This document shows, piece after piece, positions 704 to 5,439 of a DNA stretch of 5,439 bases. Location: NCBI GenBank assembly GCA_946491675.1, contig CAMLYN010000083.1, positions 1 through 5,439 of the forward strand, read 5' to 3'. Position numbers and translations under genes: made by a program. The stretch's first letter is position 1, and each line of letters starts with the position of its first letter. The notes under the pieces were generated by a model. The model saw only the letters and a list, made by a program, of their open reading frames with translations, did no database searches and was not told the origin of the DNA. Source of the stretch: an uncultured Mycoplasmatota bacterium (GTDB lineage: Bacteria; Bacillota_I; Bacilli_A; RF39; UBA660).

Positions 704-1897
704 GTGCAAGAGAAATATGCGGATTTATTATTAGAAAGTTGTTTAAATATAAATAGTGGACAGCCATTATTAATATCGTGTCCAATTGAAGTTTATGAGT
801 TTGTTAGAATATTAGTAAGAAAAGCTTACTTAAAAGGTGTAAAGGATATCTATATTGATTATAGTGATGAAGTATTAAAGCAATTGCAACTTCAAAATTT
901 TAGTGAAGAAGAATTAAACAATAGTTCATTTTGGAATAAAAAAATATTCGATGAATATGCAAAAAAAGATGCAGCGTTTTTAATGTTAAGCACTTATGAA
1001 GAAAGAAATAATGTTGATAGCAAGAAATTAGAATGTGTGGCTAAAATATCTAGATTATCACGGCCTTTATTTAAAGAAAGGCAGTTAAATAATGAAATTG
1101 CTTGGTGCATTGCTTCGGTTGCTACTAAGACATGGGCTGATAAAATGTTTCCTGGGGAAGAAAATAATGTTGAAAAGTTATGGAATACAATTTATCAAAT
1201 GTGTTTAGTAGATCATGATGATCCTATTAATTCATGGAATGAAAAAATAAAAAGTCGTGAAAAAAGAGCACAAGTTATGAATAAAAAACAATATAAATAT
1301 CTTTATTTTAAAAATTCTTTAGGAACTGATTTAACAATCGAGTTACCTAAAAATCATATTTGGGCTAGTGGTGGAGCTTTAGTTAATGGAAAAACTGTTA
1401 TTGAAAATATGCCTACTGAAGAAATTTTTACAGCACCTTTTAAGTATGGAACTAATGGTGTGGTTTATAATTCCAAACCACTTGTTTATAATGGAATTTT
1501 AATTGATGATTTTATGATTAGATTTGAAAAAGGAAAAGTGGTTGATTTTAAAGCAAAAAAAGGATATGAAGCATTAAAGTCAATTATTGAATTTGATGAA
1601 ACTTCTAATATGCTTGGTGAAATAGCTTTAGTTGATTATGATTCACCAATTTCTAATTCGGGATTAGTTTTTTATGAAACTTTATATGATGAAAATGCTT
1701 CATGTCATATGGCTTTAGGATCAGCTTATTTAGAATGCATTGATAATAATCAAACTAAAGAAGAAATATTTAAACAAATTAACCAAAGTAATAATCATGT
1801 TGATTTTATGTTTGGAACAGCTGATTTAGAGGTGATTGGAATAAAAGATGACAATACTAAAGAGCTGATTATGAAAGATGGAAATTTTATTGAATAA
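704..1897 (+). CDS. M29-family aminopeptidase (AmpS/PepS/AmpT-like)
   Basis: A 397-residue cytosolic metallo-aminopeptidase that removes N-terminal residues from peptides; the family is usually near 410 residues, so this is full length. The N-terminal domain begins with the family pattern YADLLLESCLNINSGQPLLI. The two-metal site is intact: Glu240 in NMPTEE, Glu306 in GEIALV, His335 in ENASCHMALGSAY, Tyr342, and His365 and Asp367 in NNHVDFMFGT. These spacings match the ligands I recall for Thermus AmpT (Glu250, Glu316, His345, Tyr352, His376, Asp378) within one residue. The start is GTG, supported by GGAGGG (693-698) 5 bases upstream; the upstream ATG at 691 runs into a stop at once. The gene ends in tandem stops TAA TGA. 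No signal peptide or membrane segment is seen. The role is probably peptide turnover; a sporulation role because of its position before sigG would be speculation. Confidence 0.92.
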   Translation: MQEKYADLLLESCLNINSGQPLLISCPIEVYEFVRILVRKAYLKGVKDIYIDYSDEVLKQLQLQNFSEEELNNSSFWNKKIFDEYAKKDAAFLMLSTYEERNNVDSKKLECVAKISRLSRPLFKERQLNNEIAWCIASVATKTWADKMFPGEENNVEKLWNTIYQMCLVDHDDPINSWNEKIKSREKRAQVMNKKQYKYLYFKNSLGTDLTIELPKNHIWASGGALVNGKTVIENMPTEEIFTAPFKYGTNGVVYNSKPLVYNGILIDDFMIRFEKGKVVDFKAKKGYEALKSIIEFDETSNMLGEIALVDYDSPISNSGLVFYETLYDENASCHMALGSAYLECIDNNQTKEEIFKQINQSNNHVDFMFGTADLEVIGIKDDNTKELIMKDGNFIE

Positions 1898-1902
1898 TGA
1901 AT

Positions 1903-1949
1903 AAAAAATCTCTTTTAAGATCAAAATTAATCTGAAAGGAGATTTTTTT
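1903..1949 (+). terminator. Terminator-like hairpin that also buries the sigG ribosome binding site
   Basis: Positions 1903-1916 pair with 1935-1948 (14 pairs, one U-G wobble at 1913/1938). After one A-G mismatch, 1918-1921 pair with 1930-1933, leaving an 8-base loop. The base is an A-tract/T-tract (six A, seven T), the form of an intrinsic terminator for the aminopeptidase transcript. The 3' arm contains the only Shine-Dalgarno of sigG (AAAGGAG, 1935-1941), which would be entirely paired in any transcript entering from upstream. The pairing is seen; whether it terminates, represses translation or both is inferred. Confidence 0.7.
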
Positions 1950-2723
1950 ATGGCACGTCATCGAGTTGAAATAGTTGGCGTGAATACTGCGAATATTAAT
2001 GTATTAAGTAATGAAGAAATGTTAGAGCTTTTTGATAGATTTCATAATGGTGATTTATTAGCTAAAGAAAAGTTGATTAAGGGAAATTTAAAATTAATTT
2101 TATCTGTTTTAAAAAAATATAATAGTCGAACAGATAATATGGATGATTTGTTTCAAATTGGTTGTATTGGTTTAATTAAAGCTATTGATAACTTTGATTT
2201 AGAACATGACGTTAAATTTTCAACTTATGCAGTTCCTATGATTTTAGGGGAAATAAAAAGATATTTAAGAGACAATAATGCAATTAGAGTAACTAGAAGT
2301 TTAAAAGATATTGCTTTTCGTGGATTAAAAGCAAAAGAAGAATTGACTCATAAACTAAATCGTGAGCCAACCAATAAAGAAATAGCTGATTTACTTTCAA
2401 TATCAGAAATAGATGTGGTTCAAGCTTTTGAAGCTATTAAAGATACTGTTAGTATGTCAGAACCGATTTACAGTGATGGGGGAGATACGATTTATTTGTC
2501 AGAACAAATAGCTGATAATAAAGACAAAATTAATTGGGATACAAGATTAATGTTGAAAGATGCGATTAATAAATTAAAAGAAAAAGAAAGATTTATTATT
2601 CAAAAAAGATATTTTGAAGGAATTACCCAAATTGAGTTATCAGAAGAAATTGGTATTTCGCAAGCTCAAATATCAAGAATTGAGAAAAATGGTTTAGAGA
2701 ACATGAAAAAAATGTTTCGATAA
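1950..2723 (+). CDS. sigG: RNA polymerase sigma-G factor, forespore-specific late sporulation sigma
   Basis: A 257-residue group 3 sigma factor, close in length to B. subtilis SigG. The diagnostic SigG start is present (VEIVGVNT at 6-13, compared with VEICGVDT in B. subtilis). Region 2 is at about 36-109, with DDLFQIGCIGLIKAIDNFD (65-83) and FSTYAVPMILGEIKRYLRDN (90-109). Region 3 follows RVTRSLKDIAF (113-123) to EPIYSDGGDTIYLSEQI (171-187). Region 4 is at about 203-253, with the helix-turn-helix ITQIELSEEIGISQAQISRI (225-244). SigG drives late genes in the engulfed forespore, including spore DNA-protection, germination and core-maturation genes. The ATG has AAAGGAG (1935-1941) 8 bases upstream, inside a hairpin. 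ylmC follows after 25 bases and is probably co-transcribed. No spoIIGA or sigE lies directly upstream, unlike the classical arrangement. No convincing forespore-type (SigF/SigG) promoter was found in the preceding 100 bases. Confidence 0.95.
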   Translation: MARHRVEIVGVNTANINVLSNEEMLELFDRFHNGDLLAKEKLIKGNLKLILSVLKKYNSRTDNMDDLFQIGCIGLIKAIDNFDLEHDVKFSTYAVPMILGEIKRYLRDNNAIRVTRSLKDIAFRGLKAKEELTHKLNREPTNKEIADLLSISEIDVVQAFEAIKDTVSMSEPIYSDGGDTIYLSEQIADNKDKINWDTRLMLKDAINKLKEKERFIIQKRYFEGITQIELSEEIGISQAQISRIEKNGLENMKKMFR

Positions 2724-3056: not shown

Positions 3057-3503
3057 GTGTTTGGAAAAATTCCATTAGAACAGTTATACATTGCAAATTA
3101 TGTAATGGAATCGTTAGAATATGTTTATAGCGGATTATTTAAATCTGTTAGTATAATTCATCATTTTAAAACAAAAAAAGAAAAGGATGTATTTGTTTTG
3201 GTTACCAATTCTAAAAATCAATTTGTCGGATATATGAGTTTAACTGATGGTCAAATCTATCAGCAAATTAATATAGCTTTGCAAGATTATGAAATCACAT
3301 TAGAAGATAATGATTTGGAAGGAATAAAAAAAGCAGAAAAAGTTAATAGTGGCTATATCAACTTTGAACCATTAAAAAATTATAGTTCTAAATATATTAA
3401 ACCTTATATGAATTATAAAGATGTCCAAAAGACTATTAAAGATGTAAATCGTCAAATTATGGAAAATGATGAAAAAGAAAAAACAATAAAATTTGTAGCA
3501 TAA
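3057..3503 (+). CDS. Uncharacterised 148-residue soluble protein
   Basis: I do not recognise the family. The protein starts MFGKIPLEQLYIANYVMESL from GTG 3057. Residues 7-30 look helical; 31-80 read as alternating strands, with hydrophobic runs at SVSIIHHF (30-37) and DVFVLVTNS (44-52) and a GYMSLTDGQIY turn (58-68); about 83-95 is charged; the rest ends in a lysine/glutamate-rich helix (119-142). There is no signal peptide, membrane segment, cysteine or obvious catalytic motif, so a small cytosolic alpha/beta protein is the best description. It has its own promoter (2994-3022), Shine-Dalgarno and terminator (3524-3597), so it is a single-gene unit between the sporulation pair and the RNase J gene. 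Codon use and composition match its neighbours, giving no sign of recent transfer. The vegetative-type promoter argues against strict sporulation control. Confidence 0.85.
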   Translation: MFGKIPLEQLYIANYVMESLEYVYSGLFKSVSIIHHFKTKKEKDVFVLVTNSKNQFVGYMSLTDGQIYQQINIALQDYEITLEDNDLEGIKKAEKVNSGYINFEPLKNYSSKYIKPYMNYKDVQKTIKDVNRQIMENDEKEKTIKFVA

Positions 3504-3523
3504 TTCTAATAAAGAATTTATTA

Positions 3524-3597
3524 AAATTAGTTTAGATTTTCTTTAAAAATAAATTTCGAACTATAATTTGTTCAACTAGACTAATTTCTTTTTTTTT
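3524..3597 (+). terminator. Intrinsic terminator with a branched loop, before the RNase J gene
   Basis: AAATTAGTTTAG (3524-3535) pairs with CTAGACTAATTT (3576-3587), 12 pairs with one U-G wobble, followed by C and nine T (3589-3597). The 40-base interior is not empty: ATTTT/AAAAT (3536-3540 with 3546-3550) and GAAC/GTTC (3558-3561 with 3570-3573) could form two small hairpins, giving a three-way junction. The 3' arm carries the -35 of the next promoter. Confidence 0.75.
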
Positions 3598-3605
3598 GAT
3601 ATAAT
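3577..3605 (+). promoter_or_regulatory. Extended -10 promoter of the RNase J gene, overlapping the terminator
   Basis: TAGACT (3577-3582, 4 of 6 matches), a 17-base spacer and a perfect TATAAT (3600-3605) preceded by TG at 3597-3598. The start would be near 3612, with a leader of about 31 bases carrying AAAGGAGG. The weak -35 is compensated by the extended -10. The layout copies the promoter at 2994-3022. Confidence 0.75.
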
Positions 3606-3642
3606 TAATTCGTGTTTAAAATCTAATGAAAGGAGGTTAACT

Positions 3643-5283
3643 ATGAGTAAGATTAAGATTTTTGCTTTAGGTGGATTAAATGAAATTGGTAAAAATATGT
3701 ACGTTGTTGATGTCGATAATGAATTATATATTTTTGAAGCAGGATTAAAATATGCTGATGATAAAATGTTAGGTGTTGATTACATTATTCCTAACTACGA
3801 TTATTTAATTAATAATAAAGATCGCATTCAAGGTGTTTTTTTATCACATGGTCATGATGAACAAATAGGTGCAATTCCGGATATATTACATGATTTGCCT
3901 AATTTAAAAATATATGGATCACGTTTTACCTTAGAATTATTAAAGGAAGAACTGGATGCGGAAAATTTAAAAGGTAATTTAATCGAATTAAAGCCTCATA
4001 AAAAAATTAAAGTTGGTAAAAATTATATTTTTCCGATTACTTTATCACATTCTGTTCCTGAAAGTTTTGGTTATGTTTTATATACAAATGATGGTGCAAT
4101 TTTTTATACTGGTAATTTTGTTTTTGATCCATCAATGCAGGGAAGCTACAAAATGGATATTGGCAAACTTGCTTATGTTGGCAAACAAGGAGTTTTATGT
4201 TTATTAAGTGAGTCATTATATGCTGATAAATTAGGTTTTACTTCACCTAAACATCGTAGTTATAAATATTTAAGAGAAGTTATTAATAAATATAATGGTC
4301 GTATTTTAATTAATATTTTTCAAGGTCAATTTTATCGTATGCAAGAATTGTTAAATGTAATAAGTGAAGCTAATCGTAGACTTGTTATTTTAGGAAAAGG
4401 ATTAGAAAATAATTTAATTAAAGCAATAAATAATGGTTATATTAATTTTGATAAGTCACGGATTGGAAATATTCATCATTTAGATAAAGATTCGATAATT
4501 ATTGTTTCAGATGAAAGAGAAAAGCCTTTTTCTAATATGAAACGAATAGTTCGTGGCTATGATAAATTTATTACGTTAAATGAAGATGATACTATTATTT
4601 TTGCTTCACCAGTTTACGATGGAATGGAAAAAAGTGCGACTGTTCTTTTTGACGAAATTGCTAAAAAAGGATGTAATTTAATAACAATGTCAAGTAAAGA
4701 TTTTTATGCTTTACATGCATCAAGCGAAGATTTAATGTTAATGTTAAATTTAATGCAACCAAAGTATTATTTTCCTGTTATTGGTGAGTATCGTCATCAA
4801 GTAGCTAATAGTGAAGTAGCTAAACAAATGGGAATGGCTGAAGAGAACATTATTTTGAACTTAAATGGTCAAGTAGCTACATTTGTTAATGGTAAATTAA
4901 TTGATGAAAATGATGATGTTAAAGTTGACGATATTTTAATTGATGGTAAAACAGTTGGTGATATTGGCGAATTAGTTATTAAAGATCGTGAAATGCTTGG
5001 TGAAAACGGAATTGTTTTAGTTGTTGCTATTATTGATAAATTAACTAAAAAAATATTATCTGGTCCAGAAATTGTAACAAAAGGTTTTGTATATGTAAAA
5101 GATAATATCGATTTAATTAAAGAGGCTGAAAAAAAAGCTTTAGAAATTATTCAAAATAATACTAAAGTTTCTTATATTGATTATAGTAAAACTAAAAATG
5201 AAATTAGAGATAAAGTTGGTAAGTATTTTTATCAAGAAACAGAATCAAAGCCAATTATTTTGATAATGTTACAAGAAATTTAG
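3643..5283 (+). CDS. rnjB: Ribonuclease J family protein, J2-like, probably catalytically impaired
   Basis: A 546-residue RNase J-family protein (J1 and J2 are about 555), full length. It has the metallo-beta-lactamase domain (about 1-200 and 345-420), the beta-CASP insert (about 205-340) and the C-terminal domain (about 430-546, with VGDIGELVIKDREML and GPEIVTKGFVYV). RNase J enzymes carry 5'-3' exonuclease and endonuclease activity on mRNA; in B. subtilis J1 is the active partner and J2 mainly associates with it. Overall sequence and the C-terminus fit the family well, but key residues are changed: HGHDEQ at 69-74 replaces HGHEDH, TGN at 156-158 replaces TGD, and PVIGEYR at 378-384 replaces the PIHGEYR of J1. 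TGSQGEP is replaced by VSDEREKP (288-295). His69, His71, His136 and His358 remain. HGHDE(N/Q) resembles B. subtilis J2, hence the symbol, but J2 keeps TGD and GSQGEP. ATG 3643 has AAAGGAGG (3629-3636) 6 bases upstream. It is a single-gene unit with its own promoter and terminator. Confidence 0.9.
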   Translation: MSKIKIFALGGLNEIGKNMYVVDVDNELYIFEAGLKYADDKMLGVDYIIPNYDYLINNKDRIQGVFLSHGHDEQIGAIPDILHDLPNLKIYGSRFTLELLKEELDAENLKGNLIELKPHKKIKVGKNYIFPITLSHSVPESFGYVLYTNDGAIFYTGNFVFDPSMQGSYKMDIGKLAYVGKQGVLCLLSESLYADKLGFTSPKHRSYKYLREVINKYNGRILINIFQGQFYRMQELLNVISEANRRLVILGKGLENNLIKAINNGYINFDKSRIGNIHHLDKDSIIIVSDEREKPFSNMKRIVRGYDKFITLNEDDTIIFASPVYDGMEKSATVLFDEIAKKGCNLITMSSKDFYALHASSEDLMLMLNLMQPKYYFPVIGEYRHQVANSEVAKQMGMAEENIILNLNGQVATFVNGKLIDENDDVKVDDILIDGKTVGDIGELVIKDREMLGENGIVLVVAIIDKLTKKILSGPEIVTKGFVYVKDNIDLIKEAEKKALEIIQNNTKVSYIDYSKTKNEIRDKVGKYFYQETESKPIILIMLQEI

Positions 5284-5311
5284 TCAAAGAAAAATTTTCT
5301 TTGACTTTTTT
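5283..5311 (+). terminator. Intrinsic terminator of the RNase J gene
   Basis: GTCAAAGAAA (5283-5292) pairs with TTTCTTTGAC (5296-5305) around a 3-base loop, followed by six T (5306-5311). The stem starts at the last base of the TAG stop codon. The 3' arm again ends in TTGACT, but here no -10 box lies at a usable distance: TATACT at 5313 is only 6 bases away. Confidence 0.85.
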
Positions 5312-5325
5312 ATATACTAGGAAAG

Positions 5326-5361
5326 TGCTTTGCAAAAATTGATAAAGCAAAAATTATCAAT
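5326..5361. repeat. Overlapping inverted repeats in the right-hand intergenic region
   Basis: ATTGATAA (5338-5345) and TTATCAAT (5354-5361) form a perfect inverted repeat with an 8-base spacer. TGCTTT (5326-5331) and AAAGCA (5344-5349) form another that competes for the same bases. The 9-mer GCAAAAATT is also repeated directly at 5332 and 5347. The remainder of the right end (to 5439) is AT-rich, with no ribosome binding site, no supported gene and no complete promoter; a TTGGAC at 5414-5419 could begin one that is cut off by the window edge. Function unknown. Confidence 0.4.
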
Positions 5362-5439
5362 AAGTGAATAATTAAAATAGTGTAAAAAAAATACAGCGAT
5401 CATATATTGCAATTTGGACATTTAAAAATAATATTATAA

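Follow-up and report, generated by a model that had tools for sequence, protein, structure and literature searches.

The 5,439-nucleotide stretch of DNA analyzed here (the window; contig CAMLYN010000083.1 of an uncultured Mycoplasmatota bacterium) carries on its forward strand a gene for a ribonuclease J2 (RNase J2). Judged from the sequence of the encoded protein, it has lost the ligands of the second metal but retains the histidines of the first. The protein probably acts as the J2 partner of an intact RNase J1 in a J1/J2 complex, in which it would stabilize or stimulate J1, bind at most one metal, and by itself degrade RNA as an exonuclease weakly or not at all. The gene and its metal-site motifs are as follows.

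3643..5283, + strand: open reading frame (ORF) of RNase J2 (rnjB type), 546 amino acids, ATG start at 3643, frame unbroken
3847-3864, + strand: HGHDEQ, residues 69-74; His69 and His71 are kept, and the second-metal Asp and His are changed to Glu73 and Gln74
4048-4050, + strand: His136, third histidine of the first-metal site, kept (coordinate derived from the residue number)
4114-4116, + strand: Asn158, within TGNF, replacing the metal-bridging Asp of TGD (codon reading)
4774-4794, + strand: PVIGEYR, with Ile380 (codon 4780-4782) replacing the second-metal His (codon reading)

An earlier sequence-only reading had claimed the HGHDEQ motif, Asn for the TGD aspartate, Ile for the histidine of P-HGEYR, and an intact, full-length frame. 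Reading of the codons bore out the three motif changes, and the 546-amino-acid frame is likewise as claimed.

Metal ligands in the window protein and its relatives

In an alignment that included Staphylococcus epidermidis J2, four of the seven metal ligands of the window protein are replaced. The same or similar ligand states were found again in the metagenome-assembled genome (MAG) loci L001-L056, and among the 120 database homologues listed, Asn158 occurs in 115, Gln74 in 118, and His380 in none. Because these states recur in both collections, the altered motifs are not a sequencing accident.

Conservation of the ligands was counted in 186 unique non-canonical J2 rows of an alignment, all with at least 45% identity to the window protein, which is itself included; the set is defined by identity and not by taxonomy. 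This threshold lies in a natural gap, in which the lowest member has 46.5% identity, the next non-canonical row 40.7%, and the best canonical row 34.9%. Near-identical rows and L051 (shorter than 500 amino acids) were dropped before counting, which kept 257 of 277 and then 332 of 367 rows. His69 and His71 are present in all 186 rows and His136 in 185 (the exception is L316), whereas none has His at position 380 and 2 have Asp at position 73. Asn (99 rows) and Asp (84) prevail at position 158, where two rows have His and one has Ser. In a wider sample, His380 is absent from all 231 non-canonical J2 rows, and all three first-site histidines are retained in 222. The metal site had been called broken in the sequence-only reading; the loss of second-metal ligands stands, but the word is too strong for a protein family in which the first-metal histidines are nearly invariant.

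All seven ligands are intact in the 48 fetched RNase J1 copies of the order, which were the best-scoring ones returned, so that degenerate J1 would be under-sampled. Four J2-like loci in which TGA is read as a residue (L247, L261, L262, and L263) are second RNase J copies, as the window protein is, but go beyond it in having lost first-site histidines too: His69 and His136 are missing in all four and His71 in three, L261 being the locus that still has it. An intact J1 was read in both TGA-reading genomes that were checked, G142 (L229, alongside L261) and G103 (L276, alongside L247).

Fourteen sampled J2 rows, assigned to the Lactobacillales by inference, have retained HGHEDH, with Asp73, His74, Asp158, and Ile380. 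They belong to the same clade as the window protein and share with it an Ile where the second-metal His stood, but unlike it they retain the other ligands. According to PMC6759994, the J2 of Streptococcus mutans, whose motif is nearer to the consensus HxHxDH, is a potent nuclease.

Positions 158 and 380 are concordant in charge in 184 of the 186 rows. Both are second-metal ligands in RNase J1. An acidic residue at 158 is accompanied by Lys or Arg at 380 in 82 of 84 rows, and a neutral one by a non-basic residue in 102 of 102, the exceptions to the rule being L053 and L174. Such a pattern would be expected if a lysine took over the charge of the second metal. In a test that allowed for kinship, supported branches gave 5 independent pairs, of which about 4 agreed and 0 opposed the rule (median p 0.125), and fewer rows gave a like result. 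The addition of 75 new unique non-canonical rows (90 loci), which raised their number from 156 to 231, brought no further independent pairs. Among non-canonical J2 rows with less than 45% identity the rule holds less well, with 24 rows of the 156 sampled acidic at 158 without Lys or Arg at 380, because many J2 rows hold Asp158 and Ile380 together with HGHEDH. A Fisher p calculated at this stage takes no account of kinship and was set aside. The covariation thus suggests a lead that loses significance when the relatedness of the rows is taken into account. It is conceivable, though doubtful, that by electrostatic substitution the J2 of the order changed in steps from a nuclease with two metals to a scaffold with one. 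A Lys380-Asp158 pair may have replaced the second metal and may then have been neutralized in the lineage of the window (Asn158, with Ile or Asn at 380), while the first metal and its three histidines would have been retained as a structural, nearly fully constrained element.

Family assignment and published RNase J2 proteins

The window protein matches TIGR00649, the RNase J family, along its full length (residues 4-543) at 441 bits, above the cut-off of 400. It falls outside RNase J1, with 448 bits against a cut-off of 820 for the RNase_J1_RnjA profile and with four ligands replaced. The Pfam domains PF22505, PF12706, PF07521, and PF17770 score above their cut-offs, and the best match in the PDB is S. 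epidermidis J2 (E 7e-118). In the tree, the window protein groups with S. epidermidis J2 and apart from J1, in a 63-row group with branch support of 100/99 that was recovered in 100% of 200 bootstrap trees. Another mark of J2, though not a universal one, is an HxHxDH motif that is not retained while its first two histidines are kept (PMC3937233 and PMC7864078), and HGHDEQ has this form. On these grounds the protein is assigned as RNase J2, from an uncultured member of the Bacilli; it is of an already known kind and within the known range of J2. In the structure model, residues 430-454 lie below 50 in the predicted local distance difference test (pLDDT).

Belonging to J2 does not in itself entail ligand loss, because J2-type copies of Bacillales keep all seven ligands. 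This was seen in five sampled rows of the J2 clade (L118, L119, L123, L214, and L216). L129, which lies beside them, likewise has all seven. Ligands may have been lost independently in staphylococci and in the clade of the window: the tree needs two changes between canonical and non-canonical states, but the approximately unbiased (AU) test does not reject a single group (p 0.453).

The J2 proteins (rnjB) of S. epidermidis and Staphylococcus aureus are of the same clade and have the same domains, and they too have four of seven ligands replaced with the first-metal histidines retained; staphylococcal J2 is an established partner of RNase J1. In the alignment, S. epidermidis J2 reads HGHEHA, TGE, and PVQGEF (Gln392), so that all four second-metal ligands are replaced, and the motif of S. 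aureus J2 is also HGHEHA (PMC3937233). The crystal structure of S. epidermidis J2 contains one Mn held by His76, His78, His80, His144, and Glu166 (PMC7864078). The proteins differ in the replacements themselves, which are His, Ala, Glu, and Gln in staphylococci and Glu, Gln, Asn, and Ile in the window protein. The acidic TGE and the J1-like YASN and TGMQGEP motifs, retained in staphylococci, are all replaced in the window protein.

The sequence-only reading had also held, by comparison with Bacillus subtilis J2, that this protein goes a step further. As a general statement on J2 that claim was rejected, as S. epidermidis J2 has lost as many ligands and still binds one Mn (PMC7864078), and the four TGA-reading loci contradict it as well.

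Role of the protein and competing explanations

The window protein would assemble with an intact RNase J1 into a J1/J2 complex, in which it would stabilize or stimulate J1 and add little or no exonuclease activity itself. The three retained histidines (69, 71, and 136), close to which Glu73 and Asn158 lie, would hold a single metal at most, as in S. epidermidis J2. Published work on related proteins is in line with such a role. S. epidermidis J2 stimulates J1, and the combination of J2 with a dead J1 has no activity (published). Loss of the HxH motif in S. aureus J2 has no growth phenotype, and a mainly structural function was proposed for it (PMC3937233). Enterococcus faecalis J2 without HxH still binds J1 (published).

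Co-occurrence of the two proteins was counted in the genomes of relatives, the genome of the window not being among them. J1 was found at 590 bits or more in 19 of 21 near-relative genomes, which were the author's choice among those of L001-L056 and whose completeness is not stated; G008 and G013 had none. G008 has two matches in the J2 score range (442 and 419 bits) and none in the J1 range, and is likely to be a mixed or incomplete MAG. In a sample of 60 genomes of the order, 53 had both proteins, 3 had J1 only (two of them with J2 fragments), 3 had J2 only, and 1 had neither.

The domains of the protein have not diverged evenly. Three further features of the protein are as follows.

4294..4644, + strand: beta-CASP domain, residues 218-334 (Pfam match)
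4696..4731, + strand: segment KDFYALHASSED with the remnant of the phosphate pocket, in which only His358 is left of a His-Ser-His trio
4975..5280, + strand: RNase_J_C domain (PF17770; Pfam match)

Across the 19 genomes with both copies, J2 has diverged 1.61 and 1.69 times as much as J1 in the metallo-beta-lactamase parts and 2.41 times as much in the beta-CASP domain (measured on residues 218-345), but only 0.82 times as much in the linker and 0.84 times in the C-terminal domain. Constraint is thus relaxed in the catalytic and beta-CASP domains but not in the C-terminal domain. The surface of the latter drives dimerization of B. subtilis J1 and forms part of the dimer interface (PMC7864078). 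Constraint on it would, indirectly, favor binding to J1.

A comparison of nonsynonymous and synonymous substitution rates (dN/dS) among close relatives, which the sequence-only reading had proposed, indicated strong purifying selection. The ratio is 0.063-0.125 between the J2 of the window and seven relatives (dS 0.64-0.83), and its mean over the 21 pairs of seven genomes is 0.095 for J2 and 0.067 for J1. The same reading had suggested a protein selected for a non-catalytic role, perhaps as a partner of an active RNase J. Membership of the J2 clade, purifying selection, the presence of J1 in most relative genomes, and the unrelaxed C-terminal domain favor the partnership; as to catalysis, "weakly or non-catalytic" is probably the better wording.

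Several observations weigh against a role confined to partnership. A pure scaffold would not need His69, His71, and His136, yet they are kept almost without exception; something about the first-metal site is still under selection. Two of the 21 relative genomes are without J1, for which incomplete MAGs are a likely but unproved cause. S. epidermidis J2 alone is mostly monomeric and has endonuclease activity (PMC7864078), and S. aureus J2 appears capable of some cleavage without J1 (PMC3937233). In E. faecalis J2, both the weak activity and the regulatory effect depend on HxH (published).

Because the near-fixed histidines are unexplained by a pure scaffold, the main competing explanation, to be taken seriously, is an enzyme with one metal. 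The protein would then be a ribonuclease with weak activity of its own, either as an endonuclease, as reported for S. epidermidis J2, or as a weak exonuclease, as in E. faecalis, through His69, His71, His136, Glu73, and Asn158, and partner binding would be secondary. This is the less probable reading, though it agrees with the cutting of RNA by S. epidermidis J2 with its one Mn (PMC7864078) and with the inactivation of E. faecalis J2 by H69A and by H71A (published). Asn158 is without a carboxylate, whereas Glu166 of S. epidermidis, whose mutation alters activity, has one (PMC7864078). The FASN, TGSQGEP, and SxPIPGN motifs found in J1 are changed to FQGQ, SDEREKP, and SPVYDGM in the window protein. 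These motifs, the first two of which belong to the beta-CASP domain, would have a role in the RNA channel. S. epidermidis J2 largely retains the first two as YASN and TGMQGEP, but not the third, and the absence of those two here also speaks against a ribonuclease, as does a beta-CASP domain diverging 2.4 times faster than that of J1. Furthermore, two of the three phosphate-pocket residues are replaced: the trio of S. epidermidis J1 is His364, Ser366, and His368 (PMC7864078), and His358 of the window protein is the counterpart of the last. This point is tempered by S. epidermidis J2 mutants in the pocket, which were little or modestly affected (PMC7864078).

A new role independent of J1, in RNA binding or linked to sporulation since the gene lies behind sigG and ylmC, is very improbable. 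Although sigG is upstream in 13 of the 15 loci with at least 78% identity, none of the remaining 41 loci of the 56, which are more distant, has it directly upstream, nor does L005 (85% identity), and in 4 distant loci it sits 6-7 kb downstream. In addition, a ribosome site and a terminator-like hairpin of its own flank the J2 gene. The sporulation link was rejected, as the neighborhood is not conserved in the more distant loci. That the gene is decaying toward loss can be practically dismissed: metal ligands are gone and a J2 match at E <= 1e-110 is missing in 15 of 232 genomes of the order, which may be incomplete, but J2 is present in the other 217, dN/dS is 0.06-0.13, the frame is full length and unbroken, and the C-terminal domain is constrained no less than that of J1.

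For the preferred reading as a J1 partner, an analogy is offered by IntS9/IntS11 of Integrator and by CPSF100/CPSF73, which are pairs of an inactive and an active metallo-beta-lactamase/beta-CASP paralogue. Fold-search lists for the window protein contain IntS11 and CPSF-73 entries, but these are eukaryotic, distant (14-18% identity), and of another family. Whether a J2 can help J1 without being catalytic itself could be asked cleanly of the window protein, a natural case in which the second site reads Glu, Gln, Asn, and Ile. In the paper on the S. epidermidis J2 structure, whether other J2 paralogues have a one-metal site was left to be determined (PMC7864078). The present sample of J2 rows, with His380 lost and the first-site histidines kept, makes this question testable.

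Flanking signals and neighboring genes

Three short elements flank the J2 gene.

3577-3605, + strand: promoter-like TAGACT-17-TATAAT, 10 of 12 matches, no better than chance
3629-3636, + strand: ribosome binding site AAAGGAGG (direct reading of the sequence)
5282-5306, + strand: terminator-like hairpin of 11 pairs at the gene end; 2 found against a shuffle mean of 0.3

The ribosome binding site agrees with the sequence-only reading, whereas the good promoter proposed there does not hold: region 3400-5439 has 7 promoter-like sites against a shuffle mean of 17.2, fewer than its shuffles. The promoter was rejected as a sign of expression, as the site is not distinguishable from chance. The two hairpins counted are both strands of one inverted repeat at 5282-5306.

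Upstream of the J2 gene, the window contains a sigG-like gene at 1950-2723 (365 bits, just below the cut-off of 372 of NF006071) and a ylmC/ymxH-type sporulation gene at 2740-2970. MAGs of near relatives measure no more than some 1.0-1.4 Mb, and with genes of these two types present, spore formation is worth asking about. Searches of Pfam and NCBIfam at E 0.001 gave no match for an ORF of 148 amino acids at 3057-3500, which lies upstream of J2 in 11 of the 56 loci. A gene for a sigma factor of the extracytoplasmic function (ECF) type lies at 50-568 on the minus strand. In L004, the ECF sigma gene is followed at 755-2152 (minus strand) by an ORF with repeated PepSY-like segments, which we take to resemble an RsgI-type anti-sigma factor.
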